Of a DNA stretch of 64,000 nucleotides, positions 10,021-56,415 are shown piece after piece (the first letter of the stretch is position 1; each line of letters opens with the position of its first letter). Source of the DNA: Bolinopsis microptera (lineage: Eukaryota > Ctenophora > Tentaculata > Lobata > Bolinopsidae); NCBI RefSeq assembly GCF_026151205.1, contig NC_087075.1, forward strand, positions 10,090,303 to 10,154,302, given 5' to 3'. The notes below the pieces were generated by a model. That model searched no databases and had not been told where the DNA came from. It saw nothing but the letters and a program-made list of their open reading frames with translations. The position numbers and the translations under genes are program-made.

Positions 10021-12925
10021 CTGCCGTTTTCTGACAAAAGTGCTTAAGTAACATTTTGGAAATTTCGGGTTTTTTGGTCTAACTTTTGTTTTTGGGTCAA
10101 GAACTATCCCTGAGGACCATTGGATACATTCGCCGACCCCCCAAAACCCCCTTTTTGGGACCCCCTAAAATGCAAAATATGGTCATTTTTCTGAGAAAAG
10201 TGCTTAAGTAACATTTTGGAAAACGGGTGCCGTTTATCTCAAAAACGGTGCCATTTCGGGAACTGAAAACGGTGGCATTGTTTTTTACGCCCAAAACTGG
10301 CCTAGTGACGGTAATTTGGTGATCGTGGGTCTTTTGGCCTGGGAGAAAACAATTTATGTCACTTAAGCACTTTTGTGAAAACGGGCCCGTTTTCTCACAA
10401 AAGTGCTTAAGTGCCATTATACGTTTAATTAAATGTTGATACTGCCAACTGAAACTATATAATCGATACTAACAAATCTAAATTTTCACGGTGGATCGAT
10501 TGGTGATGGTCAAACACTTCAGAAACGCTAGCTTCGCCGTCAAAATTGCCGATTTGTCAATGCAGAACATTTCAAAATATACGTCATAATTTGTTTTAAA
10601 TTTTTTTATTCTCTTATAAGTTGAGACTGGCGGGATTATCGACAGGAAAGGGAACATTACCAAAGAGACCTTCGCGAGGCTGGGGTCAGACGGAGCTCCT
10701 TTAGCGATTCTTTGGAATGAGTCAATCGCAGGAAGGAAAGATGAGAATGTGTCCTCGACTTGGATAAGGGCAATAAAACATTTTGCCAGTAATTGGCAAG
10801 ATTGGTGGTAGCAGGGAGATCATTTTTTGGGCAGACAATTGTTCTGCTCAAAACAAGTATTGGACTTTATTTACTGCCCTATGTTCAATTATCAACAGCC
10901 CAGATGTTGACCTGGACAAGATAACGGTCAAGTATCTAGAGCCAGTGCACACCTTTATGAGTGCAGACTCATTCCACCATAAAGTGGAGTTGTCCATCAA
11001 ACAATCAGGTCAACTTCATGATTATAAGGACTTTGTTCAGGCAGTTGAACAGGTGGGTACTGCGATAAGCATGAACTGCTGTGACTTTGAATCGTGGCTA
11101 AGGTCCTACGGAAAAAGCAACTAAAAAACTAAAGATGTTAAAGTTGTAAGTTTCCAGCGTGGGTCTGTAGAAAAGGAATGGAAAACAAATCATGACGAGG
11201 TTTCCTTTCATTTCACTCCATTTCTCAGACAAAAAGAGAAGAGCCCCGGGGGATAGCTACTCCCAAAAAAACAAGACATTATATACGTAAACTGTGCAGG
11301 CTTATGGCCCCGAGTAGTAGGGTATTCTGGATGAACTTGCCTGATAATACAAATATAACAGATCTTAATCGAGTGTTTGACTAAAAATCATCTATTTCTT
11401 GTATTATTGGACCATCAAAGATTTTGACTGCAACAATAAAATGAATGTATATTTTTGAATTTTTAAGATTTAATTTGATAATGCAGTATAAAGAAATTTT
11501 TATTTAGCACTGTATAGTTTAAGATATTTATAGCTTATTATAACCATTGATACAACGACCATAATTTTTCACCAGCTCTCCAATATCCATCTTAAAGTTG
11601 CATCTTATATCCTCAAACTACACAATTTAAACTTAGGCATATATACTATATAGTGTAGACTTTCTGTCACAACAAGACTGTAACCCATAGTAACAAACAC
11701 AAACAGAACCCCTACCGTCTGCTAACAATATTCTTCTGATCCTCATATGAACCCTATCTCTAAAAACTCAACTGAACTAGAGTTTTGGTGTGTGCAAAAG
11801 CTGTCAGGCACGCACATTCCCTGCCCCGTTAGTTACCTGTCCCTTCAAAATCAAACTAACAGTCAAGGACAAAAAGTCATACACCAAATGAGCAATATAT
11901 TTTTATAAATTGTTTTACATCTCTTTATCCTGTAAAATGTGCTAAAAATTAAATTTCTTGTTTCAAAAAAAATTTCTTGTTTCATTTATCATTTATTTAT
12001 GTACAGCATTACTTACAATTATGTTACATTTTTATACACTTGTTTTTCTTTGCCTCGCGTTACGATATCAATAATTTGCAAATCATTGGTATTTATGAAG
12101 AAAGCCTCATCTGAGTTCTTAATTTAATTTCTAAAGGAAGAAACTTATTTATTATTATCCCGTACTTTCACCAATCAACTCTTCGTTGAAATGCTGGTAG
12201 AATTCCGACTATTTTTTAATCCGCTGGGAGAAGGGAGTGTTTTCGTGTTCTTAAACCACCACCAATCAATTCGTCGCAAAATTTTAGGTCAGAATGATCG
12301 CAGATGAAGTTTCCACTAATGTGGCTGTACTTAAGCACTTTTCTCAGAAAACGAAATTTTCAAATTTTCTATTTCAGCGTGTCCCCTTTTTACAACCAAT
12401 GTTTCATCACAACTGTTTAAGGCTAATTTTTCGTTTTACTTTCGATGACCAATGGTTTGAATGGGTCATTTTCATCGGAACATGGAGCTTTTGCCGATGC
12501 GGCTGTACTTAAGCACTTTTGTCAGAAAACGAAATTTCAAATTTTCTATTTCAGCGTGTCCCCTATTTACAACCAATGATTCATCACAACAGTTTAAGGC
12601 TAATTTTTGTTTTACTTTCGATGACCAATGGTTTGAACGGGTCATTTTCATCAGAACATGTAGTATTTGCCGATGTGACTGTACTTAAGCACTTTTCTAA
12701 GAAATTCAAACTGTAATTTGTGATTTTGAGGCACTTTCCGAGAAGTTAGGATGATGAAACCTTGTCAGAAGTCTCAAAAGTCGACAAAGTACCTTAGAAA
12801 CATAGTGGGTGCAGTTTAAATTGGACAGTAGATAGCCCAGAGCAATTACAGAATTGAAATCTTTAAAGTCAATTTGCACAAAATGAACCTTGTGTTACTT
12901 AAGCACTTTTGTCAGAAAACGGCAG
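10021..12925. mobile_element. DNA transposon with perfect 33-bp terminal inverted repeats and AACG target duplication
   Basis: The intact transporter copy gives the empty-site sequence. Compared with it, 10021-12925 is inserted and AACG is present on both sides (10017-10020 and 12926-12929). The first 33 bases (10021-10053, beginning CTGCCGTTTTCTGACAAAAG) are a perfect inverted repeat of 12893-12925. The terminal motif CTTAAGCACTTTTGTCAGAA recurs in variant form inside both ends, near 10186, 10356, 10392, 12330, 12508 and 12680. The last three lie in a ~180-bp tandem repeat. A degenerate transposase-like segment lies at 10640-11280. Superfamily is not assigned. Confidence 0.88.
10640..11280 (+). 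pseudogene. Degenerate transposase-like coding region in the TIR transposon
   Basis: The open part, 10783-11124, encodes 113 residues with IIFWADNCSAQNKYW (near residue 13) followed by EPVHTFMSADSFHHKVE. This Asp-Asn-Cys and His...Ala-Asp-Ser...His pattern is familiar, as I recall it, from integrase-like domains of uncharacterised metazoan transposon proteins. Upstream, another frame reads APLAILWNESIAGRKDENV, which would normally precede this domain, so a frameshift lies near 10800. Downstream FQRGSVEKEWKTNH is in yet another frame. The protein is broken and the element is probably no longer autonomous. Confidence 0.55.
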
Positions 12926-14069
12926 AACGAGTGACCCTATGGCGGACTGCAGAACTCTAAATTTAATGCATTTCCGTAGAACAAACCCGAAGTATCGACC
13001 AAAGAACTGTGAGCCTCCTGAAATTGCAGCCAGGATAAGGTACTCCGCCCCATGAACTACATTTTTACAGGGATCCTGGTCATCCGGCGATGGAAGTGAA
13101 TTATTTTTCTTGTTGGCTCTCATTAATTGTGGAACCAAAAGAATACTACCGTATCCAAACACAAGAGACAGGCCCATAAACATGCTACTTTTCAAAATCC
13201 GCAGTGAAAAGTCCTTAGGTGTCTCAAAATGCTCCTTCTTGCTGGTTAATGTGGTATTATTTTCTTTGCTGTCAGATACCTCTATATTGCAATGTAGTAT
13301 TATGATTGGAGGGATAAACCAGGGAATTGAAGTGCACAGAATAAACTTACGCCAATCAATAACGTCCAACAGAAGCCACCCTAGAGCCGCTATCCAAGAA
13401 CTTCCCAGAGCAATTGCAAATCCCTGCAGAAAGCTACCAGTCGGAACGATGTCAACAGAGGACACATTCTGGGCGAAATACACCCCTGAGGTTGCGGCAG
13501 TTAAACCAACACAGATGCCAGTGAGGGCCCGTGAGAGTAACAGTGTCCAGAAGTTGGGCACTATTGCACAGACCACAGCGAATATAATGGAGGAGTAAAG
13601 CGAGAGATACAGCACGAACTTGTTACCAAGCTTCTTTGCTAGCGGCATTGAGATGAAAGTGGCAAGAGCCATGAATACATACAAGATAACTCCTAGTATC
13701 CCTTCTCTAACCCTGGATATTCCCATCTCACAGGAAACCTGCTGTGTTATCACTCCTGGCAGGTATATCTCAATTCCATGTCCAAACTTTATCAGCATCC
13801 ACTGAAAAAGAAATAGTAAATCTCGGTTAGTCCATTTTGCTGATGAACGCAGTAGAGGTTTCTTTTCTAGTCTTTCAATTTCGTCTTCAGATTCAGTTTT
13901 CGAGTTCATTGTAGCGCTATGATATCCCCTAAAAGTAAAACTGTTAATTTCCTTCATAAATCTTTAACGTTTATGATCATAATTATAAGAAAAATCATCT
14001 AACGCAGTACAGTCAAATCTTTATATAAATAAAATTATAACGGGACTATCGGGGTAAAAACGAAAAGTG

Positions 14070-18720: not shown

Positions 18721-20061
18721 TTAATGTTGTACCCCAGTCATTGTAAGAACTACTAGCACTAGCAGTGAACTGGAAATAACGTACAGCAACGTGGTGACAA
18801 ATGGGTTGAAGAAGGCAGCAAACGCCACTCCACCGATCGCACCCATGTATGCGACTGTAAACATCAAAGTGCTACTTGCTGCTATTCCATCCGATCCAAA
18901 ATATTCAGCATCTAACTGTAGGATGAGGGTTTCCGTCGTTTGCATCCCGTAAGCCATCTTTGCTACGCCCAAGCAGGCGTACTGAACCCATGATTCCGGC
19001 TTGAACAAGACAACCGCAGTACCCAGCACAACGAGTGACCCTATGGCGGACTGCAGAACTCTAAATTTAATGCATTTTCGTAGAACAAACCCGAAGTATC
19101 GACCAAAGAACTGTGAGCCTCCTGAAATTGCAGCCAGGATAAGGTACTCCACCCCATGAACTACATTGTTACAGGGATCCTGGTCATCAGGCGATGGAAG
19201 TGAATTATGTTTCTTGTTGGCTCTCATTAATTGTGGAACCAAAAGAATACTACCGTATCCAAACACAAGAGACAGGCCCATAAACATGCTACTTTTCAAA
19301 ATCCGCAGTGAAAAGTCCTTAGGTGTCTCAAAATGCTCCTTCTTGCTGGTTAATGTGGTATTATTTTCTTTGCTGTCAGATACCTCTATATTGCAGTGTA
19401 GTATTATGATTGGAGGGATAAACCAGGGAATTGAAGTGCACAGAATAAACTTACGCCAATCAATAACGTCCAACAGAAGCCACCCTAGAGCCGCTATCCA
19501 AGAACTTCCCAGAGCAATTGCAAATCCCTGCAGAAAGCTACCAGTCGGAACGATGTCAACAGAGGACACATTCTTGGCGAAATACACCCCTGAGGTTGCG
19601 GCAGTTAAACCAACACAGATGCCAGTGAGGGCCCGTGAGAGTAACAGTGTCCAGAAGTTGGGCACTATTGCACAGACCACAGCGAATATAATGGAGGAGT
19701 AAAGCGAGAGATACAGCACGAACTTGTTACCAAGCTTCTTTGCTAGCGGCATTGAGATGAAAGTGGCAAGAGCCATGAATACATACAAGATAACTCCTAG
19801 TATCCCTTCTCTAACCCTGGATATTCCCATCTCACAAGAAACCTGCTGTGTTATCACTCCTGGCAGGTATATCTCAATTCCATGTCCAAACTTTATCAGC
19901 ATCCACTGAAAAAGAAATAGTAAATCTCGGTTAGTCCATTTTGCTGATGAACGCAGTAGAGGTTTCTCTTCCAGGCTTCCGATTTCGTCTTCAGATTCAG
20001 TTTTCGAGTTCATTGTAGCGCTATGATATCCCCTAAAAGTAAAACTGGTAATTTCTTTCAT
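18721..20061 (-). CDS. SVOP/SV2-like major facilitator transporter, intact copy
   Basis: Encodes 446 residues with twelve predicted membrane segments and a hydrophilic loop between TM6 and TM7 (around 235-265), the major facilitator layout. Resemblance is to the SVOP/SV2/organic-cation-transporter branch: WMLIKFGHGIEIYLPGVITQ in TM1 and LSRALTGICVGLTAATSGVY in TM4. Substrate cannot be told; plasma or vesicle membrane is inferred. The N-terminus is acidic (TESEDE), with LLRSS just before TM1. The start is uncertain. Just downstream of the first ATG a pyrimidine-rich acceptor (TTTTACTTTTAG, exon from 20032) precedes a second in-frame ATG at 20013, so a 5'UTR intron and a 430-residue protein are likely. 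Coding appears uninterrupted. The near-identical copy at 9708-13957 is disrupted. Confidence 0.85.
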   Translation of the reverse strand: MKEITSFTFRGYHSATMNSKTESEDEIGSLEEKPLLRSSAKWTNRDLLFLFQWMLIKFGHGIEIYLPGVITQQVSCEMGISRVREGILGVILYVFMALATFISMPLAKKLGNKFVLYLSLYSSIIFAVVCAIVPNFWTLLLSRALTGICVGLTAATSGVYFAKNVSSVDIVPTGSFLQGFAIALGSSWIAALGWLLLDVIDWRKFILCTSIPWFIPPIIILHCNIEVSDSKENNTTLTSKKEHFETPKDFSLRILKSSMFMGLSLVFGYGSILLVPQLMRANKKHNSLPSPDDQDPCNNVVHGVEYLILAAISGGSQFFGRYFGFVLRKCIKFRVLQSAIGSLVVLGTAVVLFKPESWVQYACLGVAKMAYGMQTTETLILQLDAEYFGSDGIAASSTLMFTVAYMGAIGGVAFAAFFNPFVTTLLYVISSSLLVLVVLTMTGVQH

Positions 20062-20189
20062 AAATCTTTAACGTTTATGATAATTATAAGAAAAATCATC
20101 TAACGCAGTACAGTCAAACCTTTATATAACGGGACTATCGGGGTAAAACCGAAAAGTGTACCTACGGCATAGAAAAAACCCGGTAAGGA

Positions 20190-27558: not shown

Positions 27559-27648
27559 ATTCCGCTACGGACAGTAGAACAAAATTCGATTTTCCGCTAC
27601 GGACAGTAGATCAAAATTCGATATTCCGCTACGGACAGTAGACCCAAA
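27559..27648 (+). repeat. Three ~34-bp tandem repeats just upstream of LINE ORF2
   Basis: TTCCGCTACGGACAGTAGA occurs three times with AACAAAATTCGAT-type spacers, and ends 24 bp before the ORF2 ATG. It could be an internal promoter or RNA element of the LINE, or a copy-specific expansion. No function can be read from sequence. Confidence 0.7.
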
Positions 27649-27671
27649 ACCCCCGATCAATAAATCCCAAA

Positions 27672-30600
27672 ATGGGAAAACGAACCGCACGTACCGATGC
27701 GTTTAACCTAAACGGCAAAACCCCTCAGAATAAGAAGAGAATTTCCCAACGCCAGAATGTCAATCCCTCAACTAAAGAGAAAGGTAAGGAAAGCTACTTT
27801 ACCAACGTTAAACAAATTAATCTACAAAAGAAAAAAGTCGCTTGCATGAATTACTACCAGGAATTATCACCATACGAAATCATGTTAACACAAGAGCCTT
27901 ACGCTGTTAAAAACAAAATATGCTTCGTTCCAACTACTCATAAGGCTTTCAGTGCTTACTGCCATGAGAAAACACCAAGAGCCGCCATCCTGCTACCACT
28001 AGAACTAAGCAAATTATCTTTCATTATGGGGAACTTCTCAAACGGAGACATAATAACTGTCAAATCCAACATCATATCAAAGAAAGGAGTTATATTCACT
28101 TCAATTTATATGGCCCTAGAGAAGAACGAACAAAAAATTGAACCATCTACCCTCAATAAATTCAAGGAACTAACCATCTATGCAAAACAGAACAATATCC
28201 CCCTCATACTGGGATCTGACTCCAACGGCCACCACACTCTTTGGAATAGCTACAAAGAAACGGAAAGAGGAAGGATCATCAGTAATCTCATCAATGAACT
28301 AGATCTAAAAATACAAAACACAGGGAACTCACCCACCTTCGTGAACACTCGAGGGCACAAAAGCAGAATAGACATCACCATGACAAATAACTTCTCAAAC
28401 ACTCTCATAAAAAACTGGAAAGTCCACGAAGAAGTATCGCTATCAGACCACAAACTGATCAGTTTCCAAGTCGATCTAGGAAACAACAAAACCAGCTACA
28501 GAAGATGCTACGAGAAAGCAAACTGGAACGACTTCAGAACCAAAGTTGAATCTAAGCTAAAGGAGAATCCCTTCAACTACAAAACAAAACCTGGATCTCT
28601 CGATAAAAATATGAATTTCATTAACAACATCCTACAAAAGACACTTGATGAAATCTGCCCCCGGACCAAAATCATCCATAAATCCAAAACACCGTGGAAC
28701 GATAACCTAGAAAAACTGAAAATTAATACCAAGAAAGCGAAAAACAAAACCCTCCTGAATCCAGAACAACCAAAACTCAGACAAGAACTGACAACTCAAG
28801 AAAGAGACTATAGAAGAGAAATCCAAAATGTAGAAAGACAGAGCTGGAGAGACTTCTGCTCAGAGGAGAAGAGCAAGAAAAAGCTTGCTAAATTCCCCAA
28901 ACCTAAACAAAAGGACTGGGAGATACTCCATATTTTGAAAAAAGAAAACGGAGAATTCACAAAAACTTCAGAGGAAACACTAGGTTACTTTGCAAATCAC
29001 CACTTCCCCATATCAAATGAAGATCTACTTAACCCTCTCCAACACCAAGAAAACATCTCAGGAGAAATCATCAATGAATGTGCCTATAAGAAAGCTATCA
29101 GCTCTCTACAGCCTAAAAAAGCACCAGGACCCGACAAAATTAGAAACGAGATGATAATCCACTGTAAAGACTTACTGAAAGACCCACTCTTACACATATT
29201 CAAACAATGTCTGGAGACAGCTCGCTCCCCTAAAGCCTGGAACAAAAACGGAAGCATTATATTAGCAAAACCATTCAAAGATGATTACTCCAACCCAAGA
29301 GCATTCAGAATCATCAGCCTGACATCCAATGTACAAAAACTTCTAGAAAAAATCATTCTTATATATCTAGAAGACAAAGTGAAAATCGACAAAAAACTGA
29401 CAAAAAATCAATATGGATTCAGGAAAAGAAAGGGGACCGAAGCTGCCCTTCACAAACTGACTAGACGGATTGAAGATGCGATAGCAAACGGACAATACGC
29501 ACTCGGAATATTCCTGGATATAGAATCCGCATTCGACAAATTAAAATTCAACTCAATCCAAAATGCGATGCTAAAAATAGAAATCCCCAAAACAATTATA
29601 AACTGGATTTACTACATGCTCTCAAACCGAGAAATCACTCTAGAACTACACGGCAGAACAATCAAAAGAAACATCTACAGAGGTTGTCCTCAAGGAGCCA
29701 TCCTATCACCCCTCCTCTGGAACCTAACCCTGAACACACTTCTCGAAAGGGACGATCTAAACCCAGACTTCCTGCAAGCATTTGCAGATGACCTAGCGAT
29801 AATAATAAAAGGTATTGACATATCTCTCACCATGAGAGATATAGCTAAACATTATCTAAAAACGATCAACAGATGGTGTAATGAAAACGGAGTAAAACTC
29901 AGCATTCTGAAAACTACCACAATTATATTCTCACCAATCAACAAAAAATACAAATTTGAACCAATAACCCTGGGAAACTCTACTTTCAAAGTGGAAAAAG
30001 AGGTAAAATACCTGGGAGTCACACTGGACAAACACCTCAGATGGAATGTTCACATAAAACAAAAAACCAATGCAGCAATGAAACTTCTAATGGCCTGCAA
30101 ATCTTACATTGGTAAAACATGGGGAGTATCCCCCCCTAGAATGAGATGGATCTATAACCAAGTTATCCTCCCCACACTAGGATACGCCTGCTTCCTCTGG
30201 AAGAATGTAAACCACCTGCTGCACATGCTAGAAAAAGTACAAAAATTTGCAACACTTCAAATAACGGGAGGTTTCTCCACCACTCCGAAAATTACACTGG
30301 ACAGCCTAGCAGGCATTATGCCTATTGAAATTAAATTACATAACATCGCAACAAAAACAGCATTAAGATTATACTCGAACAAATGCTGGTACCCGGACAC
30401 CAACCTAGGATGTAAGAAATCCTATATCTCACATGCCAGACAACTTGACAAAGAAATTCAACCTCTGAAATATTATCTGGACAGTCCTCTAAATGAACAA
30501 ACTCAACCACAAAACATCGTAAGAAGTTTCACCATATCTGAAGAGGAAATCAACGACCCAAAACTATGCGAGCCAGAAGAGAACACGATTCAAATATTCA

Positions 30601-31514
30601 CAGATGGATCAGTCATAGACACTAAAGAAGGAAAACAAGCAGGAGCGGGCATATACATTCGCAAAGAACAAACAGATCTATTGCATAAACACTGCTCATT
30701 AGGCACATTGGCGACCATCAACCAAGCTGAAATGTACGCCATCTGTGAAGCTGCAGCCTTCCTGAAAAATGATACCAGTCAAGCCAACTCAGTAAAGATC
30801 TTCACAGATTCCCTGAACTCGATCCAAAGACTAAATAAAACTGATTCAAACTCAAAATTAACAATTGAAACATTAAACAACATAAAAGACCTTCAACTAA
30901 AATACAAAGAAGTCACTTTACACAAAGTAAGAGCCCACATAGGAATTGTAGGCAATGAAACAGCTGATACATTGGCTAAAAGAGGTGCGGAAAGTAAACC
31001 AATAGGACCAGAACCATTCCTATACTTACCAGACTCGATAATAAGACACAAACTAGGAACACAAATGCTGAACAAAAGATCAAAATCGATTCAGGAAAGT
31101 AAAATAAAAATAAGTAATAAAATCTTACTCAATAGCTACCTTAAAGATAAACCACCAAAAATTGCCCACCACATCAAAGCAGACCTAAAAAACATAACAG
31201 GTATTATTTCAGGACAAAACCATCTAGCACACCATGAAAATAAGATGGACAGGAACGTAATTCCATTCTGTAAACACTGCCCGGGAACAAGAGAGACCAC
31301 GGAACACTTCATGGCGGATTGTCCCGCTTACTCCCACATCAGGCAAGAAATCTTCCAATCAACACATATTCCCTTAAACCAAATAATACAAAATTTCAAC
31401 ACGAAAACTATTTGCAAATTCATTAACCGAACAGGGAGGATGGAAGAAGAAAATAAATGTTATCAAAACTTTAAAAAAAACCAAAAATTCTCGGCTTTGA
31501 TACCACGTCAATAA
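27672..31514 (+). CDS. LINE ORF2: endonuclease, reverse transcriptase, RNase H
   Basis: An uninterrupted 1280-residue ORF. Residues ~60-270 form an APE-type endonuclease (LTQEPY; GSDSNGHHTLWNS; GHKSRIDITM; LSDHK). The reverse transcriptase follows with APGPDKIRNEMI, RIISLTSNVQKLLEK, LDIESAFDKL, RGCPQGAILSPLLWN and the catalytic FADD near residues 707-710, then KYLGVTLDKHLRW. RNase H starts near 974 (FTDGS, NQAEMYA, FTDSLNS, RAHIGIVGNETADTLA), with its acidic residues present. A Cys-His motif (CKHCPGTRETTEHFMADC) begins near 1199. It would nick target DNA and reverse-transcribe LINE RNA. The lack of stops points to a young insertion, although ORF1 is broken. Confidence 0.95.
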   Translation: MGKRTARTDAFNLNGKTPQNKKRISQRQNVNPSTKEKGKESYFTNVKQINLQKKKVACMNYYQELSPYEIMLTQEPYAVKNKICFVPTTHKAFSAYCHEKTPRAAILLPLELSKLSFIMGNFSNGDIITVKSNIISKKGVIFTSIYMALEKNEQKIEPSTLNKFKELTIYAKQNNIPLILGSDSNGHHTLWNSYKETERGRIISNLINELDLKIQNTGNSPTFVNTRGHKSRIDITMTNNFSNTLIKNWKVHEEVSLSDHKLISFQVDLGNNKTSYRRCYEKANWNDFRTKVESKLKENPFNYKTKPGSLDKNMNFINNILQKTLDEICPRTKIIHKSKTPWNDNLEKLKINTKKAKNKTLLNPEQPKLRQELTTQERDYRREIQNVERQSWRDFCSEEKSKKKLAKFPKPKQKDWEILHILKKENGEFTKTSEETLGYFANHHFPISNEDLLNPLQHQENISGEIINECAYKKAISSLQPKKAPGPDKIRNEMIIHCKDLLKDPLLHIFKQCLETARSPKAWNKNGSIILAKPFKDDYSNPRAFRIISLTSNVQKLLEKIILIYLEDKVKIDKKLTKNQYGFRKRKGTEAALHKLTRRIEDAIANGQYALGIFLDIESAFDKLKFNSIQNAMLKIEIPKTIINWIYYMLSNREITLELHGRTIKRNIYRGCPQGAILSPLLWNLTLNTLLERDDLNPDFLQAFADDLAIIIKGIDISLTMRDIAKHYLKTINRWCNENGVKLSILKTTTIIFSPINKKYKFEPITLGNSTFKVEKEVKYLGVTLDKHLRWNVHIKQKTNAAMKLLMACKSYIGKTWGVSPPRMRWIYNQVILPTLGYACFLWKNVNHLLHMLEKVQKFATLQITGGFSTTPKITLDSLAGIMPIEIKLHNIATKTALRLYSNKCWYPDTNLGCKKSYISHARQLDKEIQPLKYYLDSPLNEQTQPQNIVRSFTISEEEINDPKLCEPEENTIQIFTDGSVIDTKEGKQAGAGIYIRKEQTDLLHKHCSLGTLATINQAEMYAICEAAAFLKNDTSQANSVKIFTDSLNSIQRLNKTDSNSKLTIETLNNIKDLQLKYKEVTLHKVRAHIGIVGNETADTLAKRGAESKPIGPEPFLYLPDSIIRHKLGTQMLNKRSKSIQESKIKISNKILLNSYLKDKPPKIAHHIKADLKNITGIISGQNHLAHHENKMDRNVIPFCKHCPGTRETTEHFMADCPAYSHIRQEIFQSTHIPLNQIIQNFNTKTICKFINRTGRMEEENKCYQNFKKNQKFSALIPRQ

Positions 31515-37071: not shown

Positions 37072-39440
37072 GACGTTAAGAAGTTAAGAAGTTAAGACCG
37101 CCAAACGGTGCCCGCGGGGCAGCCACGCCCATATTTGGTCCAAATTAGGCCCAATTTAGCCAAATACCCTCAACATGCCCGAAACCCAGGTATTAGGTGC
37201 TCTACTTGTAGCTAGTGGTCCCCTGAACTCGTATATGTCTTTTCATTAAGATTGGACAAAAAATGACCGAGTTATGAGCCAAAAACCGTATGACCATATT
37301 TTGGCATACGCATCAAATTTGATCGATTTTGGCCCATAAATTGGTCAAATATCAATATTTTTGAATGAAACCAACTTTATATGGAAGGTAAGCCTATACT
37401 ACACATCCTCTATGATTATCAGCTCAGTATCTACCTAACCGTGGATTCTGTGTTCAAATAATCGCAAATGAGCGATTTTGTTCATTTTTTGCAATTATTT
37501 GATTACAGAATCCACAGTTAGGTAGATACTGAGCTGATAATCATAGATTAACTCATCAGCAACAACAGTGAAATCATTGAATTAATCACGAACGAAAGTC
37601 AAGTCCACCTCACGAGAGTCGTTGCTAGATTTGCCACTACGTGTTTTAACAACCGCAAGAAATTCGTCGACTCTCTGGCCAGTACATGAATAATAAACAT
37701 CACTGTACCAGCGCTGTTTCTTTTCGCGCAACAATGAGTGCAGAGTGACCTGGCTCAAGCATTACAGCATTACCAAGGCGACTGTAAACAAAATATTTAT
37801 TGTCAAAATCTTTATTTTTCACTTTGGTTTAAGTTATATAATATAATAAATTTAAATCATATGATATTGTTATTATCTTAACAGTTACTATTGTAACTAA
37901 AGATTTTAAATTTGTATTCCTTGTATTCCTTGTATTCCTTGTATTCCTTGTATTCCTATTCCTAGAGGATGTGTAGTATAGGCTTACCTTCCATATAAAG
38001 TTGGTTTCATTCAAAAATATTGATATTTGACCAATTTATGGGCCAAAATCGATCAAATTTGATGCGTATGCCCAAATATGGTCATACGGTTTTTGGCTCA
38101 TAACTCGGTCATTTTTTGTCCAATCTTAATAAAAAAAGTCATATACGAGTTAAGGGGACCACTAGCTACAAGTAGAGTACCTAAAATCTGGTTTTTGGGC
38201 ATGTTCAGGCTATTTGGCTGAATTGGGCCTAATTTGGACCAAATATGGGTGTGGCTGCCCCGCGGGCACCGTTTGGCGGTTGGGGTCCCGGACCCCCTCA
38301 AAAGTTCGGTCACCGGTCCTAGTTTGTTGGTCAACTGCTATCTCGAAACCAAGTTTCACAAAAAAATCAGGGCGAACCCCCCCCCCCCCCCCCCCTTAAG
38401 AAGTTAAGAAGTTAAGAAGTTAAGAAGTTAAGAAGTTAAGAAGTTAAGAAGTTAAGAAGTTAAGAAGTTAAGAAGTTAAGAAGTTAAGAAGTTAGGAAGT
38501 TAAGAAGTTAAGAAGTTAAGAAGTTAAGAAGTTAAGAAGTTAAGAAGTTAAGAAGTTAAGAAGTTAAGAAGTTGAGAAGTTAAGAAGTTAAGAAGTTAAG
38601 AAGTTAAGAAGTTAAGAAGTTAAGAAGTTAAGAAGTTAAAAAGTTAAGAAGTTAAGAAGTTAAGAAGTTAAGAAGTTAAGAAGTTAAGAAGTTAAGAAGT
38701 TAAGAAGTTAAGAAGTTAAGAAGTTAAGAAGTTAAGAAGTTAAGAAGTTAAGAAGTTAAGAAGTTAAGAAGTTAAGATAAGAAGTTAAGAAGTTAAGAAG
38801 TTAAGAAGTTAAGAAGTTAAGAAGTTAAGAAGTTAAGAAGTTCAGAAGTTAAGAAGTTAAGAAGTTAAGAAGTTAAGAAGTTAAGAAGTTAAGAAGTTAA
38901 GAAGTTAAGAAATTAAGAAGTTAAGAAGTTAAGAAGTTAAGAAGTTAAGAAGTTAAGAAGTTAAGAAGTTCAGAAGTTAAGAAGTTAAGAAGTTAAGAAG
39001 TTAAGAAGTTAAGAAGTTAAGAAGTTAAGAAGTTAAGAAGTTAAGAAATTAAGAAGTTAAGAAGTTAAGAAGTTAAGAAGTTAAGAAGTTAGGAAGTTAA
39101 GAAGTTAAGAAGTTAAGAAGTTAAGAAGTTAAGAAGTTAAGAAGTTAAGAAGTTAAGAAGTTAAGAAGTTGAGAAGTTAAGAAGTTAAGAAGTTAAGAAG
39201 TTAAGAAGTTAAGAAGTTAAGATAAGAAGTTAAGAAGTTAAGAAGTTAAGAAGTTAAGAAGTTAAGAAGTTAAGAAGTTAAGAAGTTAAGAAGTTCAGAA
39301 GTTAAGAAGTTAAGAAGTTAAGAAGTTAAGAAGTTAAGAAGTTAAGAAGTTAAGAAATTAAGAAGTTAAGAAGTTAAGAAGTTAAGAAGTTAAGAAGTTA
39401 GGAAGTTAAGAAGTTAAAAAGTTAAGAAGTTAAGAAGTAA
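37072..39440. repeat. Octamer satellite (AAGTTAAG)n, split by a fold-back element
   Basis: About 1045 bp of nearly pure GAAGTTAA octamers at 38396-39440, roughly 130 copies. A short stub of the same repeat sits at 37072-37095 on the other side of the E element. Variants (GTTAGGAAG, GTTGAGAAG, GATAAGAAG, GTTCAGAAG, GAAATTAAG) recur in the same order twice (about 38491-38911 and 39089-39354), which shows a higher-order structure produced by unequal exchange. No coding. Confidence 0.9.
37096..38395. mobile_element. E element, fold-back copy, inserted at TTAA in the octamer satellite
   Basis: Flanked by TTAA on both sides (37092-37095, 38396-38399), each belonging to the satellite. Arms 37098-37405 and 37975-38282 are inverted copies (GCCAAACGGTGCCCGCGGGG ... 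ACTTTATATGGAAGGTAAGC). A smaller inverted repeat sits at 37410-37546. The right end continues about 110 bp further, through GGTCAACTGCTATCTCGAAA to a ~19-base C tract; the left end lacks this terminal part. Related copies are 53487-54224 and a fragment at 50925-51137. No transposase was seen. Confidence 0.8.
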
Positions 39441-45437: not shown

Positions 45438-45560
45438 TGATTATTATATCTTAGAATGTGGTTGGGCTGTGATTTATCGACCATGAGTACCAAGAAAGCA
45501 GATATTTGAATTGACTAGATTTCCACTGGTAAGCGACTCGGAAAATCATGGGCCGGCATA

Positions 45561-45632
45561 GTGCCGGGGCGGGTATGATCCGCCAACCTCCGAGTTACAT
45601 GCCTGGTGCTCTACCAATTGAGCTACCGGCCC
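45561..45632 (-). tRNA. tRNA-like sequence (threonine-like TGT anticodon), probably tRNA-derived repeat
   Basis: Folds as a 72-nt cloverleaf. The acceptor GGGCCGG pairs with CCGGCAC except one mismatch. The D arm is GCTC-AATTGGTA-GAGC, with a strong A box (TAGCTCAATTGG). The T stem GGCGG/CCGCC is fully paired. The anticodon stem has an A-C mismatch, base 33 is A instead of the near-universal U, and the T loop is ATCATAC and not TTCRANY. The B box is therefore poor. This looks like a tRNA pseudogene or SINE head more than a working tRNA. Confidence 0.45.
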
Positions 45633-46174: not shown

Positions 46175-46246
46175 GGGCCGGTAGCTCAATTGGTAGAGCA
46201 CCAGGCATGTAACTCGGAGGTTGGTGGATCATACCCGCCCCGGCAC
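46175..46246 (+). tRNA. tRNA-like sequence, inverted second copy
   Basis: Same cloverleaf as 45561-45632 on the opposite strand, differing by one T-stem base (GGTGG, a G-U pair). The same departures (A33, A-C in the anticodon stem, unusual T loop) are present in both copies, so they were there before the duplication. Confidence 0.45.
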
Positions 46247-46500
46247 TATGCCGGCCCATGATTTTCCGAATCGCTTACCAGTGGAAATCTAGTCAATTCA
46301 AATATCTGCTTGCTTGGTACTCATGGTCGATAAATCACAGCCCAACCACATTCTTGATCAGACATGTGCATACGCCATTTGGGAGCCGTCAGTTGAGCTT
46401 GCTCTCTGACTCGTGGGTTGAAAACATCGTGTACAGTACTTCGTGAGTAGTACAGTACTTCACAACGATAATCCGCCTTCCCAATCTCAAAATATTATAT

Positions 46501-47612: not shown

Positions 47613-47689
47613 ATGGTACTCTCTTCCTTCCTAAGTTCGTCTGCTGACCGGCTACTGGGAGTAATCTTCTGTGTTATTGCTTTCACCGG
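47613..47689 (+). CDS. GPCR exon 1 (short N-terminus and start of TM1)
   Basis: MVLSSFLSSSADRLLGVIFC then VIAFTG, ending with a GTAAGT donor in phase 2. An in-frame TAG lies at 47604-47606. The segment is hydrophobic from residue 14 and continues into exon 2 to complete TM1. Confidence 0.8.
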
Positions 47690-50600
47690 GTAAGTGGCAA
47701 TACTGAAGTGAATAAATAGATAAATAAGTAAATTAATTTACTTATTTATTTAGTGATAAAACTCGAGTAAATATAACTGTTAACCTCCCTCAGTGTTACA
47801 TCTAACTTCGCTAACTGTTAACCTCCCGCAGTGTCACATCTAACTTCACTAACTGTTAACCTCCCTCAGTGTTATATCTAACTTCACTAACTGTTAACCT
47901 CCCTCAGTGTTATATCTAACTTCACTAACTGTTAAGCTCCCTCAGTGTCACATCTAACTTCACTAACTGTTAACCTCCCTCAGTGTCACATCTAACTTCA
48001 CTAACTGTTAACCTCCCTCAGTGTCACATCTAACTTCACTAACTGTTAAGCTCCCTCAGTGTCACATCTAACTTCACTAACTGTTAACCTCCCTCAGTGT
48101 TATATCTAACTTTGCTAACTGTTAACCTCCCTCAGTGTTACATCTAACTTCACTAACTGTTAACCTCCCTCAGTGTCACATTTAACTTCACTAACTGTTA
48201 ACCTCCCTCAGTGTCATATCTAACTTCACTAACTGTTAACCTCCCTCAGTGTCACATCTAACTTCACTAACTGTTAACCTCCCTCAGTGTTACATCTAAC
48301 TTCACTAACTGTTAACCATCCTCAGTGTCACATCTAACTTCACTAACTGTTAACCATCCTCAGTGTTACATCTAACTTTACTAACTGTTAACCATCCTCA
48401 GTGTCACATCTAACTTCACTAACTGTTAACCATCCTCAGTGTTACATCTAACTTTACTAACTGTTAACCTCCCTCAGTGTCACATCTAACTTCACTTACT
48501 GTTAACCTCCCTCAGTGTCACATCTAACTTTACTAACTGTTAACCTCCCTCAGTGTCACATCTAACTTTTCTAACTGTTAACCTCCCTCAGTGTTATATC
48601 TAACTTTGCTAACTGTTAACCTCCCTCAGTGTCACATCTAACTTCACTAACTGTTAACCATCCTCAGTGTCACATCTAACTTCACTAACTGTTAACCATC
48701 CTCAGTGTCACATCTAACTTCACTAACTGTTAACCTCCCTCAGTGTCACATCTAACTTTTCTAACTGTTAACCTCCCTCAGTGTTACATTTAACTTCACT
48801 AACTGTTAACCTCCCTCAGTGTCACATCTAACTTCACTAACTGTTAACCTCCCTCAGTGTCACATCTAACCTTACTAACTGTTAACCTCCCTCAGTGTTA
48901 CATCTAACTTCACCAACTGTTAACCTCCCTCAGTGTCACATCTAACTTCACTAACTGTTAACCATCCTCAGTGTCACATCAAACTTCACTAACTGTTAAC
49001 CTCCCTCAGTGTCACATCTAACCTTACTAACTGTTAACCTCCCTCAGTGTCACATCTAACTTCACTAACTGTTAACCTCCCTCAGTATCACATCTAACTT
49101 CACTAACTGTTAACCTCCCTCAGTGTCACATCTAACTTCACTAACTGTTAACCTCCCTCAGTGTCACATCTAACTTTTCTAACTGTTAACCTCCCTCAGT
49201 GTCACATCTAACTTCACTAACTGTTAACCATCCTCAGTGTCACATCTAACTTCGCTAACTGTTAACCTCCCTCAGTGTCACATCTAACTTCACTAACTGT
49301 TAACCATCCTCAGTGTCACATCTAACTTTTCTAACTGTTAACCTCCCTCAGTGTCACATCTAACCTTACTAACTGTTAACCATCCTCAGTGTCACATCTA
49401 ACTTCACTAACTGTTAACCTCCCTCAGTGTCACATCTAACTTTACTAACTGTTAACCTCCCTCAGTGTCACATCTAACTTCACTAACTGTTAACCTCCCT
49501 CAGTGTCACATCTAACTTCACTAACTGTTAACCTCCCTCAGTGTCACATCTAACTTTTCTAACTGTTAACCTCCCTCAGTGTCACATCTAACTTCACTAA
49601 CTGTTAACCTCCCTCAGTGTCACATCTAACTTCACTAACTGTTAACCTCCCTCAGTGTTACATCTAACTTCGCTAACTGTTAACCTCCCTCAGTGTCATA
49701 TCTAACTTCACTAACTGTTAACCTCCCTCAGTGTCATATCTAACTTCACTAACTGTTAACCTCCCTCAGTGTCACATCTAACTTCACTAACTGTTAACCT
49801 CCCTCAGTGTCACATCTAACTTCACTAACTGTTAACCTCCCTCAGTGTCACATCTAACTTCACTAACTGTTAACCTCCCTCAGTGTCACATCTAACTTCA
49901 CTAACTGTTAACCTCCCTCATTGTCACATCAAACTTCACTAACTGTTAACCTCCCTCAGTGTCACATCTAACTTCACTAACTGTTAACCTCCCTCAGTGT
50001 CACATCTAACTTCACTAACTGTTAACCTCCCTCAGTGTTATATCTAACTTCACTAACTGTTAACCTCCCTCATTGTCACATCTAACTTCACTAACTGTTA
50101 ACCTCCCTCAGTGTCACATCTAACTTCACTAACTGTTAACCTCCCTCAGTGTTATATCTAACTTCACTAACTGTTAACCTCCCTCAGTGTCACATCTAAC
50201 TTCACTAACTGTTAACCTCCCTCAGTGTTATATCTAACTTCACTAACTGTTAACCTCCCTCATTGTCACATCAAACTTCACTAACTGTTAACCTCCCTCA
50301 GTGTCACATCTAACTTTACTAACTGTTAACCTCCCTCAGTGTCACATCTAACTTCACTAACTGTTAACCTCCCTCAGTGTCACATCTAACTTCACTAACT
50401 GTTAACCATCCTCAGTGTCGTGGGCCCATACTTGTGCCGTGGGCCCATACTTGTGCAGGAGGTGCATTTTGCTCTCAACATCTGTGTTTTGGTGACCCTC
50501 AGGTCTTTTGATTACATACATTTTGTCGTAGAATTGTGTAAATTTGTATGTAATTGATCGATTTGAAAGATTTCAATAAAAACAAAACTTCACTAACTGT

Positions 50601-53600
50601 TAACCTCCCTCAGTGTCTCATCTAACTTCACTAACTGTTAACCTCCCTCAGTGTTATATCTAACGCTGTCATGACAGTTCACCTCTCCACCCTTTCCAAG
50701 CACCTGAGAACCCGGACCACCTCAATGCTCATTCAGATCTCTACAGCAGACTTTCTTACTTGTCTTACAGTGGCTCCTGTCGTTGCAGGTCAGTATTTTT
50801 TGTGTGATATTTTTAGAATTTAGATAATTACTTTACTCCGGTCTATCCAACAGCTGCAATCTGCATGGTTACATAGTTACTGGCAATTACAAATTTAGTT
50901 TAAACGTGTGATATTCAAATAGTGAATAGTCTTCAATATTTTTGCATGAAATTTTCGGAATCGAATTTTCTAAATCGCATTTCCACCTTATTGTAGGAAG
51001 CCGATTTTTAATTTAGGCCTCCACAAAATTTTGGCGGCCAAATTCCAAAATTTTCCCGGCAAAATTCAAGTTTGGTCACTGGTGTCCTAGTTTATTGGTC
51101 AACTGCTATCTCGAAATCAAGTTTCACAAAAAAATACCCATTGAAAATACTGATCTGATGTCTACCAATTCTCCCTCTCATATTCTCCATACTCTCAACA
51201 GTAAAACTCAATGCTAGTTGGGATGGGGAGTTCCAATCACTTCTAAGGATATGACCGAGCATTTTCCAGCGAGACTTAGCAACCCTCTCTGTTAATGGAG
51301 TCACCCCACAACGAGCATAAAGGTCTCGGTTACTGATGATTCGGGGATAAGTGGAGTTCATGATCCGCCTCAAATGTTTGCACTGACACACATCCACTTT
51401 CTGAAGGATTTTCTCTGGAGCGGCCAAGCTATTGCAGTTGTACAGCAGTACTGGCCACTGGGGTAACAAGGGCCTCGTATAACTTCACTTTGGTGTCCAG
51501 TGAAATTCGGGACTTTTCCAGCCAAACTTTGTTGTACTTTTCGAAAGCAACATTAGCTAGGATACAGCGGTGAAGTATGTCAGATTTGCTGCAAAGCCTG
51601 GATCCCAGTGACACACTCTTCCTCCATGGCTCTCTACCTCTTAATGGCTCTCCTTTCTCGTCGACATCTGTTTTGTCTGCTATATACTTATATAGAAACA
51701 GAAAAATTCAGTCTTGTCTTCGTTAACAAGTAGATCTCATTCAGCCAAAATCTCTCTGCAAATAGGCAGCATTTCACGCAGATTTTATTCGTCTTCATCA
51801 CCGAAATCTGCATCATCTGCATACTCCCATTCTATTGGCAAGAGAGAGTCTGGGTCAAAAGGAGGGTTTGGACGCAGGTAGTGAAATGATAACACTACTC
51901 TTAGGTGGTACAGTGCGCCAGCAAAGTATAGAGTATAAGTAAAACATGCCCCTGAAGCTGCATCACATTGGAAAGATCTGTTGGAGGTTTCAAACTCCAA
52001 AGAGATGGTTTAGTCAATATTAATTCTGAGCTTGGTATTTGACAACAAATACCTTGCTAACCTGATGTCATCGTCACAGCAACCAGCTTCCTTTAGCAAG
52101 TCAAGAATTACTGGTCGCTTTATGGTGTCAAAAGCTGAGCTCCTATCGATGCCCGTTTTGGAGAATTCCCATCTTTTCCCCTTCATTACAGATATATATG
52201 GCGTTGGGTCCATACAATATTCGCACAACTGTGACCTGCCTTGTACGCATTTTGCCAGGGTCCAGTATACTCAGCTATCTGTCTCCTGACCCTGTGAAGT
52301 GTTATAAGGGACAAGAGCTTCCTAGTACCGTTGAGTAGACATAGGGGCCTGAGACTTTTAACTGGGCCTTTGGGTTTGCCAGGTTTCTGCAGCAGTGGTG
52401 CCAAATATCCCTCTGTAAAAGATGGAACATGTTCATTACGCTCAAAAGATCGGTTAATGAGGGTAGCATATTGTCTCTAGAAATTTTCAGGAGCATATTT
52501 TAGGAGTTCATTGGGGATCTGATCTGGGCCTACTGCCTTACCATTCTTCAACTTTGAGGCTGTATACTGTACTTCTTCACAGGTTATAGGAGTCTGAAGG
52601 GGTCTAGGAGGTCCTATGAAGGGTTGCAAAGGGGGTTCTGGACTGGCATAGTGTTGCAAGAACCATTCTCGGAAATGGCAGCCTTCTCTTCATCGTTTCC
52701 AACGAGCTGATTGTCTGCGTTGAACACTGATATTGGTTCTGCTTGTTTATCAGTGGCAAGGGCACGTGTGGCTTCAAACTTACGCTTCGTGTCATCAGCG
52801 TTATTGATAGCATCTGCTATCTTGTTAGCATGTTCTGTCTCAAGTTCTTTGAGGCGTTTGTTGATGTTGTTCTTGAGTTTGTTAATGTTTCGTCGCAATT
52901 CAGTCCTATCACGCAGCATGTTGTCATTCAGTTGAAGTATCAGCTTGTGTCTTTCATCTGACATGCAACATACTTGAGGGTCTGATGAATGTTGAGTTTT
53001 TCTTTTTTTCTGTCTCATACCCACTGTGTTAGACGCAGCAGTTTTAACAGTTCCAAATAACTGCTCAAAGCCTGCTTTAACGTTAGGGGGAGTGGGTAGG
53101 CTGTCTATTTGCTGTGTGACAGCTTGGTGAAACTGGTTCAGTGGTTCTGTAACTCCTTGATGCAGACCAGGGACGTTGTGTTGTACTTTACGGTCTGAGT
53201 TTTTCTGCTTTTGTAGAGCTTAGTTTTCTGCCTGAGATCTATGGTAGCTTTCACGATTTTTTGATCTGAGTGTAGTTTTGCACCACCATAAGCCCTGGCA
53301 TCACTCAAAAATCAATCTGTGAAAACTTTTCTTGGTCTTTTTATCTTTGACCCAACCAGTTCTGGTAATGATGTGACGACTGAAATGGCGGAATGCAGTA
53401 TTTGCAGCAAATAAGTTATTGAACACAAGAAAGTTCAACAACCTCTCGCCGTTTTCATTCCTCCCACCAACGCCGTACCTTCTTAAGGGGGGGGGGGGGG
53501 GGGTTCACCCTGATTTTTTTGTGAAACTTGGTTTCGAGATAGCAGTTGACCAACAAACTAGGACCAGTGACCGAACTTTTGCGGGGTACCCGGACCCCAA

Positions 53601-56415
53601 CCGCCAAACGGTGCCCGCGGGGCAGCCTCGCCCATATTTGGTCCAAATTAGGCCCAATTTAGCCAAATACCCTGAACATGCCCAAAATCCAGATTTTAGG
53701 TGCTCTACTTGTAGCTAGTGGTCCCCTGAACTCGTATATGAATTTTCATCAAGATTGGACAAAAAATGACTGAGTTATGAGCCAAAAACCATATGACCAT
53801 ATTTGGGCATACGCACTAAATTTGATCGATTTTGGCCCATAAATTAGTCAAATATCAATATTTTTGAATGAAACCAACTTTATATGGAGGGTAAGCCTAT
53901 ACTACACATTATCTATGATTATCAGCTCAGTATCTACCTAACTGTGGATTCTGTGGTCAAATAATCGCAAAAAATGAACAAAATCGCCCATATCTCAGTT
54001 CGCGATAATTGCAAAACTGACTTCGCTCAAAACAATAGAACTCAATAGGGTTTCAATATTTTTACATGAAATTTTCAGAATCAACGTAGAATCGCATTTC
54101 GACCTTCAGTTTTGTATTGGAATTTTGAGTTAGGCCTTTAAAAAAATTTGGCGGCCAAATTCCAAAATTTGCAATGCAAAATTCAGAATTTGGCCGCCAA
54201 ATTCTGAATTTGGCGGCCAAATTCTTAAGTTCTTATGAAGGCCACTGTTGTAGTCTTGATCTGACTGTTTACCAAGTTTTGCATTAAAATCCCCCAGTAT
54301 CCAGAGTTCATAACGTGCGGGTACATCCACTGCTACTTGAAGTTCACGGTAAAACTGGTCTGTAGCTGCAGGGTTTGAAATTGTCTTTGGGTTGGTTGGG
54401 CTGTAACAGCAGATTTTGAAGGAACAAAAAACTCCATGTAAACAACACGATCGCTAATCTGATGAAATGAACGGAAGTAATGATTAACACGAGTATTGAT
54501 AAGAAACCCCAGTCCACCATGATTTCCCGGAAGTCTCGAATCTGAAAACTGACGTACTTTAGTCTCTTGTAATCCAATAACGTCTAAATCATATCTGTCA
54601 CAGTCCTGGGCAAGCAGATGTTGCTTGTCCGTTTTTGTCAAACCTCGAACATTCCGTGTAGCAAAGCCGAGTAGAGCAATGGTGACAAGGAGCGTAGTGA
54701 TCTGTCCTACAGTGATCTTCCACGTAGCAGTAGATATTCTGGTTGTAGTAACCATGTGTGTCCATCACGACATCACGCCATCCTAAGAACTTGTATAAAG
54801 CTTTAAATTTATCCGAAAAATGCTCAGACTAATAACTAAGATCAATATAAAATCGTTATGAACTAATATAAGTGATTTAGAAATCTCCAATCGATGTGAT
54901 AAATTAACTTCTTCCATTTCAGCGGGATTATTACAAGATCGGTATCTGCCCATTGAGATTGGTGGCGACTACGATGTTAACTCACCTTTAGCTAATATCA
55001 TAGGTAACAATCGTTAACCGCAACTTATATTTAGTTATAAACTTAGTTCAACATTCCAGATCTGTTACATTTATTAAGTAAATGTGTTTGAAAGGTTGGA
55101 TATATTTTAGCCTTGCTTTAGTCAGTTCAAATCCTGGCTCAGTGCCTCTCTTTGTCATGAAGAAAACAAATAGGCGAAATTTTAACCACAGACCAAATTC
55201 AGTTCAAATAAAAAAAAGCGGAGTAAGGATTGATCAAAATTGAACGTTTATAAAAGTAATCCGAAACCCTGATTTTCCAAGATTTTTGATTTACCAAAAA
55301 GATGAGCCCAAATGCGCCTCCCCGAAGAATCCTGGTAAATCAAGGTTTTATCGTATCATACTTTCTTTAATATCATACTACCACACCTCTCAGGTTTAAT
55401 ATCAACTGCCATGAACTCCTCCTCGCTTCTACTGATATTCGTGTTCAGTATCGACAGGTTTGTCGCTGTCTTCTTTCCTCTCCAACGTACCCGGATCCTC
55501 ACCGCTAAAAGTTTCACTCTTCTCTGCTCTGTGGCCTGGATCCTACCCATAACGTCCAGCTTATACCCCATCTTCAAGTCCGGGCACTATTACTACTTCC
55601 CTGCTTTGGGTTACTACCTAGCCTACCTGGAGATTGACACCCACCTGGAACAGCAACTCCTCTACGCCACCAGTAACCTGATGGTGCTGGCTCCTTTCTT
55701 CCTTACCATAGGGATCAGCATTGCAACTGTGGTTAGACTGCAGAGGGGCTCGAGGAAAGGGAAGGATACCAGTTTGAAGAGGAACATGTGGTGGTCTGGC
55801 AACAGGGGAACAACTGGAGTGAGCACGTGCAACAGGAGTGGAACAACAGGAGTGCAGAGCACGTGCACCACAGGAGTGACCACGTGCACCACATCCCAGA
55901 CTGATAAAGAGTCTTCAAGACGTGTCAACCCGCTGAATCTACTATCTAAACAGACCCAGCCGGACATCGTCAAGTCTCCGGACCTGAGATCGTCCTCTCA
56001 GACTCTCGGTACCAGAGAGAGTTTGACTGTGCTAAACAGCTCCAAGAACTCTGATTGTTTGGTGACCAAAAAGCGGGTAAAGGCTCCTAAATCTCGGCAA
56101 AACAAAACTAATGTTGTCGTGTTGAAGATAATTGGACTTTACATCCTGTGCCTGCTCCCTGGCAATTTGATGAACATTTATGACATGCTTGACACGCTTG
56201 ATGCTCTTCCAGCTTCTGTTTCTTTTGAATATCTGTCACAAAAAGATAGTGTGCTGACTGCTTATCTTTACATGTGTTTGATATTTTCTACGCTGCTGTA
56301 TACAGTGAACTCTTGTATTAACCCTTATGTTTATTGTTTTAGATCACAATATCAGCGCAAAATTATTTCTGAAAAGTTTTTGAGTAGTTTTAGAAATATT
56401 TTTGGTAGATCTTGA
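47613..56415 (+). CDS. Rhodopsin-family G-protein-coupled receptor, four exons
   Basis: Splicing 47613-47689, 50652-50788, 54923-55003 and 55394-56415 gives a continuous 438-residue frame; every junction is GT-AG and the phases match. TM1 has GVISNAVM (the TM1 Asn, residue 30), TM2 STADFLTCLTVAP (Asp59), TM3 ends in DRF (119-121), TM6 has CLLP in place of CWxP, and TM7 ends NPYVY (408-412). The N-terminus is very short (about 12 residues). TM3 has Ala at the usual Cys position and the second extracellular loop has no Cys, so the common disulphide is absent. The third cytoplasmic loop is long (about 205-320) with a TTGV/STC repeat. Ligand and subfamily cannot be assigned. Upstream non-coding exons are possible. 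Confidence 0.87.
47776..50665 (+). repeat. 38-bp minisatellite (about 70 units) built from the intron-1 splice acceptor
   Basis: Unit: CTCCCTCAGTGTCACATCTA followed by ACTTCACTAACTGTTAAC. Roughly 69 units fill 47776-50417. A ~170-bp unrelated segment (50418-50585, with a GTGGGCCCATACTTGTGC doublet and an AATAAA) follows, then two more units to 50664. The last CCTCAG at 50646-50651 is the exon-2 acceptor, and exon 2's first 13 bases (TGTTATATCTAAC) are the matching part of the unit. Variants are TTACATC/TTATATC and CATCCTCAG for CTCCCTCAG. Confidence 0.95.
50652..50788 (+). CDS. GPCR exon 2 (end of TM1, loop, TM2)
   Basis: Encodes GVISNAVMTVHLSTLSKHLR, TRTTSMLIQISTADFLTCLT and VAPVVA. TM2 carries Ala-Asp (Asp59). 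The acceptor is the last unit of the 38-bp array; the donor is GTCAGT. Confidence 0.85.
50925..51137 (+). repeat. E element fragment at the 3' end of the RTE-like remnant
   Basis: 50925-51063 resembles 54037-54170 (TTGGCGGCCAAATTCCAAAA shared), and 51064-51137 matches the terminal part of the E element (TTGGTCAACTGCTATCTCGA, CAAGTTTCACAAAAAAAT). The G/C-tract terminus is missing. Confidence 0.6.
51138..54755 (-). pseudogene. RTE-like LINE remnant antisense in GPCR intron 2
   Basis: From the right on the minus strand: endonuclease pieces (GFATRNVRGLTKTDKQHLLA, VIGLQETKVRQFSDSRLPG, WILGDFNAKLGKQSDQD) at 54660-54240. After the E insertion comes NENGERLLNFLVFNNLFAAN. The reverse transcriptase follows over 52.8-51.8 kb (KNGKAVGPDQIPNELLKYAP, QNAYKAGHSCANIVWTQR, DRSSAFDTIKRPVILDLL, EYADDADF with the catalytic ADD). 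The C-terminal part (HLRRIMNSTYPRIISNRDLY, RVAKSRWKMLGHILRSDW) runs to about 51170. Many frameshifts. No RNase H was seen, as in RTE-type elements; the clade call is by eye. Confidence 0.75.
53487..54224. mobile_element. E element inserted at TTAA in the RTE-like LINE
   Basis: TTAA flanks the insert at 53483-53486 and 54225-54228. It starts with 17 or so G, then TTCACCCTGATTTTTTTGTG and the same sequence as the E arm at 37-38 kb. The right end is GGCGGCCAAATTC. On the minus strand, joining across one TTAA gives DYNSGLHKN-L-RRYGVGGRNE in frame, so the target is precisely recovered. No obvious terminal inverted repeat in this copy and no coding. Confidence 0.8.
54923..55003 (+). CDS. GPCR exon 3 (first extracellular loop)
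   Basis: Acceptor TTCCATTTCAG, then AGLLQDRYLPIEIGGDYDVN and SPLANII to a GTAACA donor. 81 nt, so phase is kept between exons 2 and 4. It supplies the loop between TM2 and TM3. Confidence 0.75.
55394..56415 (+). CDS. GPCR exon 4 (TM3 to C-terminus)
   Basis: Acceptor CACACCTCTCAG at 55393. Encodes GLISTA and then the rest of the receptor: FVFSIDRFVAVFFPLQ after TM3, TM4 (FTLLCSVAWILPITSSLYPI), TM5 (LMVLAPFFLTIGISIATVV), a long Ser/Thr-rich third loop, TM6 (VVLKIIGLYILCLLPGNLM), TM7 (YMCLIFSTLLYTVNSCINPY) and a ~25-residue basic tail ending NIFGRS. The ATG at 55411 is internal and not the start of translation. Confidence 0.9.
55800..55893 (+). repeat. Coding minisatellite in the GPCR third loop
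   Basis: ACAGGAGTG...ACGTGCACC-type units are repeated about four times, encoding TTGVSTCN, TTGVQSTC, TTGVTTC. This gives several extra cysteines and threonines in a cytoplasmic loop. Confidence 0.7.

Follow-up and report, generated by a model that had tools for sequence, protein, structure and literature searches.

A ctenophore GPCR gene carries a predicted mirage-type minisatellite of dozens of copies of its own splice acceptor

The first intron of a class-A GPCR gene in the ctenophore Bolinopsis microptera ends in dozens of nearly identical 3' splice sites, which raises the questions of which site can yield a receptor, where the array came from, and how the right acceptor might be chosen. 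We examined these questions in a window of 64,000 nucleotides (the whole stretch of DNA that was analysed, C4:10090303-10154302; GC = 38.2%) and in the genome around it. The gene is intact: its predicted exons, joined in silico, give one open frame of 438 aa, and this frame without exon 3 matches the Pfam family 7tm_1 (E=1.3e-21). The features of the gene and of the array are as follows (a slash marks a splice site).

47613..47689, + strand: exon 1, 77 nt, 3' end ACC GG/gtaagt; open frame with exons 2-4
47690..50651, + strand: intron 1, gtaagt...cag, read directly
47774..50419, + strand: main 38-bp array of acceptor units (TRF: period 38, 69.6 copies, 94% matches, score 4669)
50420..50585, + strand: tail of a dispersed retroposon that splits the array, about 166 bp, present in at least 39 other places in the genome
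50586..50664, + strand: last two units (TRF, 2.1 copies), the final one being the putative real acceptor and the first 13 nt of exon 2
50652..50788, + strand: exon 2, 137 nt, 3' end GCAG/gtcagt; open only from 50652
54923..55003, + strand: exon 3, from splice signals and the joined frame
55394..56415, + strand: exon 4 with the stop codon, from the joined frame; matches the paralogues on C6

Elsewhere in the window, two tRNA genes lie upstream of the receptor gene (45560-45632, - strand, and 46175-46247, + strand; Rfam), and an 8-bp unit, TTAAGAAG, is present in 131 copies at 38396-39438 (TRF). Two near-identical reading frames on the - strand (12899-13963, apparently cut short, and 18721-20067) are presumably membrane transporters, and we take a 1290-aa frame at 27642-31514 (+) to be a non-LTR retrotransposon polyprotein.

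Each 38-bp unit of the array straddles the exon-intron boundary, with 25 nt of intron end and 13 nt of exon start. Within a unit, CTAAC, which we take to be branch-point-like, is followed by a pyrimidine stretch, AG, and then TGTNAYATCTAAC, with which exon 2 begins; around the acceptor the unit reads CAG/TGTCACATC. In the one assembly available, a fixed-step walk yielded 70 full units (our unit list of 71 counts one partial unit after the insert) and 72 acceptor positions including the real one, 69 of which keep the AG (lost at 49922, 50074 and 50264). The 25 nt upstream are identical in 37 of the 72 positions, the real one among them. With 23 consensus-identical units in the list of 71, and 2.0-2.3 differences between units whatever the distance separating them, the array is homogenised and its turnover is repeat-like. 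These data bear out the original prediction of a minisatellite built from the gene's own 3' splice site, with that composition of the unit, dozens of near-identical acceptors and a final unit that joins the real acceptor to the opening 13 nt of exon 2. The predicted number of about 70 copies also held, but the predicted continuous span of 47776..50665 did not: the array begins at 47774, ends at 50664 and is interrupted by the retroposon.

Copies of this retroposon share an AATAAA and an A-rich end; the other copies have about 50 bp extra in the middle compared to the tail at 50420-50585. Because the tail splits the array, the array predates the insertion. The insert also leaves only two acceptors, 50614 and 50652, close to exon 2, as the next one above 50614, at 50416, is 236 nt further upstream than 50652.

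We joined exon 1 to all 72 acceptor positions and found that the frame is open only from the acceptor with exon start 50652, while each of the 71 upstream acceptors runs into a stop codon in frame before exon 2 has been read through. Thus, the claim that only the last acceptor gives a receptor stands. The in-frame TAA of the unit is unchanged in 70/70 units, and the related claim, that any upstream choice meets a TAA within one unit, is correct except for 50416, which reads into the retroposon insert and stops at codon 72. The AG columns carry 3 substitutions, and two random columns carry as few (P=0.67); AGs have been neither specially kept nor lost, and we saw no sign of selection on the decoy AGs, which vary no less than random columns. 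CTAAC has 2 substitutions over 5 columns x 70 units (it is kept in 68/70 units) and the TAA columns have none, but we draw no conclusion from this constancy because the units are copied from each other and are not independent. A coding repeat was rejected, because neither strand has a stop-to-stop frame of 90 aa that overlaps the array, as was a structured RNA, since a four-unit fold gave z = -0.73 and the two tRNAs are the only Rfam gathering matches in the window.

To locate the source of the unit, we searched the genome (264,652,675 bases, 232 contigs). Searched with at most 2 mismatches, a 22-mer core had 70 matches genome-wide, 70/70 of them in the array; the opposite strand and a reversed control each gave 0 in the 264.7-Mb genome, which excludes a chance pattern. 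A satellite present elsewhere is thereby rejected, the core being unmatched outside the array. The gene has two paralogous copies on C6, L033 and L047. The joined protein of L033 (7tm_1, E=1.7e-23) is 40% identical to the window receptor over 405 aa, and its intron 1 (L033:6928-7090) is only 163 bp and has no array; intron 1 of L047 is longer, and the array is absent from the TRF list there. The 13-nt exon part of the unit encodes residues that align with the paralogue. Because the repeat is confined to this site and the paralogue intron is free of it, we infer that the array derives from its own gene's junction; the same two observations favor the earlier proposal that it grew from the intron/exon boundary. 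We did not see a new intron position relative to these relatives, as the paralogue intron has the same position and phase. The exon 1/intron 1 junction is likewise common to the window gene and its C6 paralogue, and intron 1 splits ACC GG/T in the former and ATC GG/A in L033. Since the corresponding codon is split in equal phase, 50652 is supported as the probable true exon start.

The C6 copies have an array of their own, independent of the window array, in which an exon end, NTYPFFR/gtaaat, is repeated together with its donor in 39-bp units that have the same edges in both copies.

L033:8928-9121: donor-spanning 39-bp array, 5 units
L047:7494-8116: donor-spanning 39-bp array, 16 units

The difference of 5 to 16 units makes these recent duplicates a ready case for the study of length change. 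The acceptor of this exon has undergone a fresh duplication in L047, where it is present twice together with 17 nt of exon (45 bp, 100% identical), with a 5-bp edge overlap, ATGAA. The same acceptor is single in L033, where a 31-bp repeat of 10.5 copies (L033:8430-8759) lies directly upstream. Thus, three different junctions are amplified in this receptor family: the window acceptor, the C6 donor and the L047 acceptor.

We then asked how often splice motifs recur in tandem across the genome, using triples of a motif with gaps of 16-46 nt on both strands and, as a control, the pattern read backwards. Donor triples greatly exceeded controls for CAGGTAAGT (452 vs 0), AAGGTAAGT (481 vs 1) and CAGGTGAGT (320 vs 11), for a sum of 1,253 overlapping matches against 12 reversed controls. 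Acceptor triples (TTTTYCAG) numbered 432 vs 75, with one array, C4:6878350, making up about half of those among the matches listed. The single motifs also outnumbered their controls (CAGGTAAGT, 2462 vs 1212; TTTTYCAG, 46712 vs 29003). Match counts overstate independence, as k tandem copies give k-2 matches; because matches overlap within arrays, we took the locus as the independent unit. The first 100 CAGGTAAGT triples listed fall into 9 loci, compared to 0 control matches, for which the chance is about (2/3)^9 = 0.03 given the 2:1 ratio of the single motif. Counted by locus among the matches listed, the enrichment is modest.

To find out what these arrays adjoin, we fetched, without selection, all loci among the first 100 matches listed for each of two donor patterns (9 from CAGGTAAGT, 5 from AAGGTAAGT); the exon-proximal edge was readable in 13/14 (all but C3:9771139, L076/L079). 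A coding-looking exon adjoins the array in 8/13 (L054, L055, L056, L058, L060, L061, L072 and L078; on the acceptor side in L058), adjacency is doubtful at L062/L077, and none was seen at L057, L059, L074 and L075 (4/13 readable loci). These exon calls were based on domain matches, on bounded frames and on splice signals judged by eye; in an open-frame test of exon adjacency no locus reached P<0.10, against a background with a median of 27 codons that includes repeats with very long frames. The clearest case is a homeobox gene (L061; C10:4506000-4508400), with a homeodomain match well above the Pfam cut-off (E 4.4e-23), in which a 35-bp unit, composed of the last part of the first homeobox exon and its donor, sets about 20 donors before the VWFQNRR exon. 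L056 (WD40-like, best family E 2e-5) and L072 (Sushi-like, E 0.0026) fall below the cut-off; L054 and L064 gave E 0.11 and E 0.2, and pieces of L055, L058, L060, L066, L070, L078, L081 and L082 had no Pfam match.

Additional loci, kept outside these frequencies because they were selected, comprise L063, 6/12 of the listed TTTTYCAG loci and 2/8 of the listed CAGGTGAGT loci. L063, from the single CAGGTAAGT search, has no exon at its array. Among the TTTTYCAG loci, L064 (on the donor side), L066/L067 and L070 have an exon-like frame and L068, L069 and L071 do not, while in both CAGGTGAGT loci, L081 and L082, the frame is open up to the array. The L082 frame (C9:1817900-1818800), which had no Pfam match, ends in GFSNIECCSANCETS before a donor array, an end that to our eye resembles an insulin/relaxin A chain. 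We also note that L058 (C8:7268000-7270200) consists of 37-bp units, GTAAGT...TTATTTCAG, such that acceptor touches donor in every unit; we take the junction TTATTTCAG/GTAAGT to be a form of recursive splice site, and the array resembles a row of them. The regions of six other GPCR matches (L048-L053) hold tandem arrays and count neither for nor against. From the predicted exon edges, the same genome seems to form splice-junction arrays at other genes too, and the occurrence of arrays in unrelated genes, at donors as well as at acceptors, points to a mutational habit of this genome.

Such arrays have a precedent in the 'mirage' minisatellites of amphioxus Adh3, BflGb6 and BflGb9 (PMC3087553), with TnC and PGBD5 as further examples (PMC3902484). 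The Adh3 mirage has 10-72 bp units and somatic instability, that of BflGb6 lies on the acceptor side (6 units in one haplotype, 3 in the other), and that of BflGb9 lies on the donor side; RT-PCR suggests that splicing is regular (PMC3087553), and mirages are reported to leave regular splicing undisturbed (PMC3087553, PMC3902484). Like the mirages so described, which duplicate a 5' or 3' splice site, the window array is a minisatellite-like duplication across an exon-intron boundary, with AG (in 69/72) or, in donor mirages, GT in many units, the real site at the exon edge, and homogenised units. Mirages also vary in length between copies, as does the C6 donor array (5 vs 16 units). The two systems differ in that the window array is from a ctenophore and has 72 acceptors, compared to 6 and 3 units for BflGb6 in the lancelet, and that regular splicing, which RT-PCR suggests in amphioxus, is a prediction for the window array. 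Human internal tandem repeats at exon-intron boundaries in segmental duplications are also minisatellites (units of about 30 bp) that vary between paralogues and may sit at splice boundaries, but they alter exons or make new introns, whereas the window array lengthens an existing intron and leaves the predicted protein unchanged (PMC2812944). Similarly, tandem duplication supplies extra splice sites in intron gain in potato RdRp (PMC4974935) and in the Rogers model (cited in PMC3087553), as it does here, but creates a new intron there and none here. We found no report of a ctenophore splice-junction array in the open-licence papers searched. Since the anatomy is that of an amphioxus mirage, the window array would be a splice-junction minisatellite of the mirage kind in a new phylum, of unusual size and with apparent recurrence.

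We consider it probable that the array arose as a mirage-type minisatellite, in which a tandem duplication first spanned the 3' junction of intron 1 and repeat turnover then enlarged the array neutrally on the intron side, such that the spare units would leave with the intron while the acceptor adjoining exon 2 is used. Most likely, the array is a harmless runaway duplication. Exon definition pairs the outermost site with the splice site at the other end of the exon, one exon length away, and would be the simplest chooser of the last acceptor, because 50652 is paired over 137 nt with the exon-2 donor and most upstream acceptors have no donor nearby. However, 50614 is only 38 nt upstream of 50652 and identical on the intron side; this pair is the hard test, since exon definition by itself may fail to tell them apart. 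The suggestion that some mechanism picks the last AG is a fair one, although ordinary exon definition would suffice and a special mechanism need not be invoked. Splicing to a decoy would introduce a stop codon and presumably yield a degraded message, so the array would be tolerated or would slightly lower output. In these cases, the spare copies are on the intron side, with the real acceptor last and the real donor first; provided that splicing takes the outermost site, growth on that side would not alter the protein. The array edges overlap by 5 bp in L047, by 10 bp in L061 and by 2 bp in the C6 donor array, with no clear value elsewhere, which allows a microhomology-mediated first duplication, and donor and acceptor arrays alike appear to form repeatedly in this genome, perhaps via short edge matches.

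We considered that the array might instead be a regulatory decoy, whose competing acceptors bind splicing factors unproductively and cause intron retention or decay, such that receptor expression would depend on the length of the array. Other animals do have decoy splice sites that favor intron retention, and the persistence of AG in 69/72 positions and CTAAC in 68/70 units, together with the stop that follows every upstream choice, would fit such a role. We nonetheless regard it as unlikely: the AG and branch-point columns show no special conservation beyond turnover among units that are not independent, unrelated genes and donor sites have similar arrays, and amphioxus mirages are reported not to interfere with splicing (PMC3087553). 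The original idea that the array tunes expression is thus unsupported.

It is very improbable that the units are stepping stones of recursive splicing or future exons of an intron in creation. It has been proposed that new introns may arise from mirages (PMC3087553), and L058 does repeat TTATTTCAG/GTAAGT, but a GTAAGT-like donor is absent from the window unit, and no donor directly follows the acceptor in its units, so as they stand they are neither exons nor recursive sites. Least probable is a satellite or mobile repeat that inserted beside exon 2 and supplied its splice site, or an assembly artefact. Tandem arrays are common in this genome (TRF gives 53 rows in the window), but no further copy exists genome-wide and the 13-nt exon part aligns with paralogue residues, while variation among units and the retroposon inside the array argue against a simple artefact. 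We thus retain the mirage-type duplication as the preferred reading.

Splice-junction minisatellites have so far been described mainly in amphioxus. Ctenophores have been proposed as the sister lineage to all other animals, and repeated ctenophore arrays at donors and acceptors, some of dozens of units, suggest that the phenomenon is not peculiar to lancelets. The decoys match the real site nearly or fully, so each array poses directly the question of how one of several equal sites is selected by the spliceosome, and such arrays are raw material for intron lengthening and possibly for intron gain. We suggest, tentatively and at somewhat less than even confidence, that across the genome of this ctenophore splice junctions act as hot spots of tandem amplification, with arrays of their own donor or acceptor in hundreds of introns and up to about 100 units, the outermost site always being spliced. 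If so, this genome would be a natural, replicated experiment in duplicated splice sites, showing that exon definition rules splice choice.
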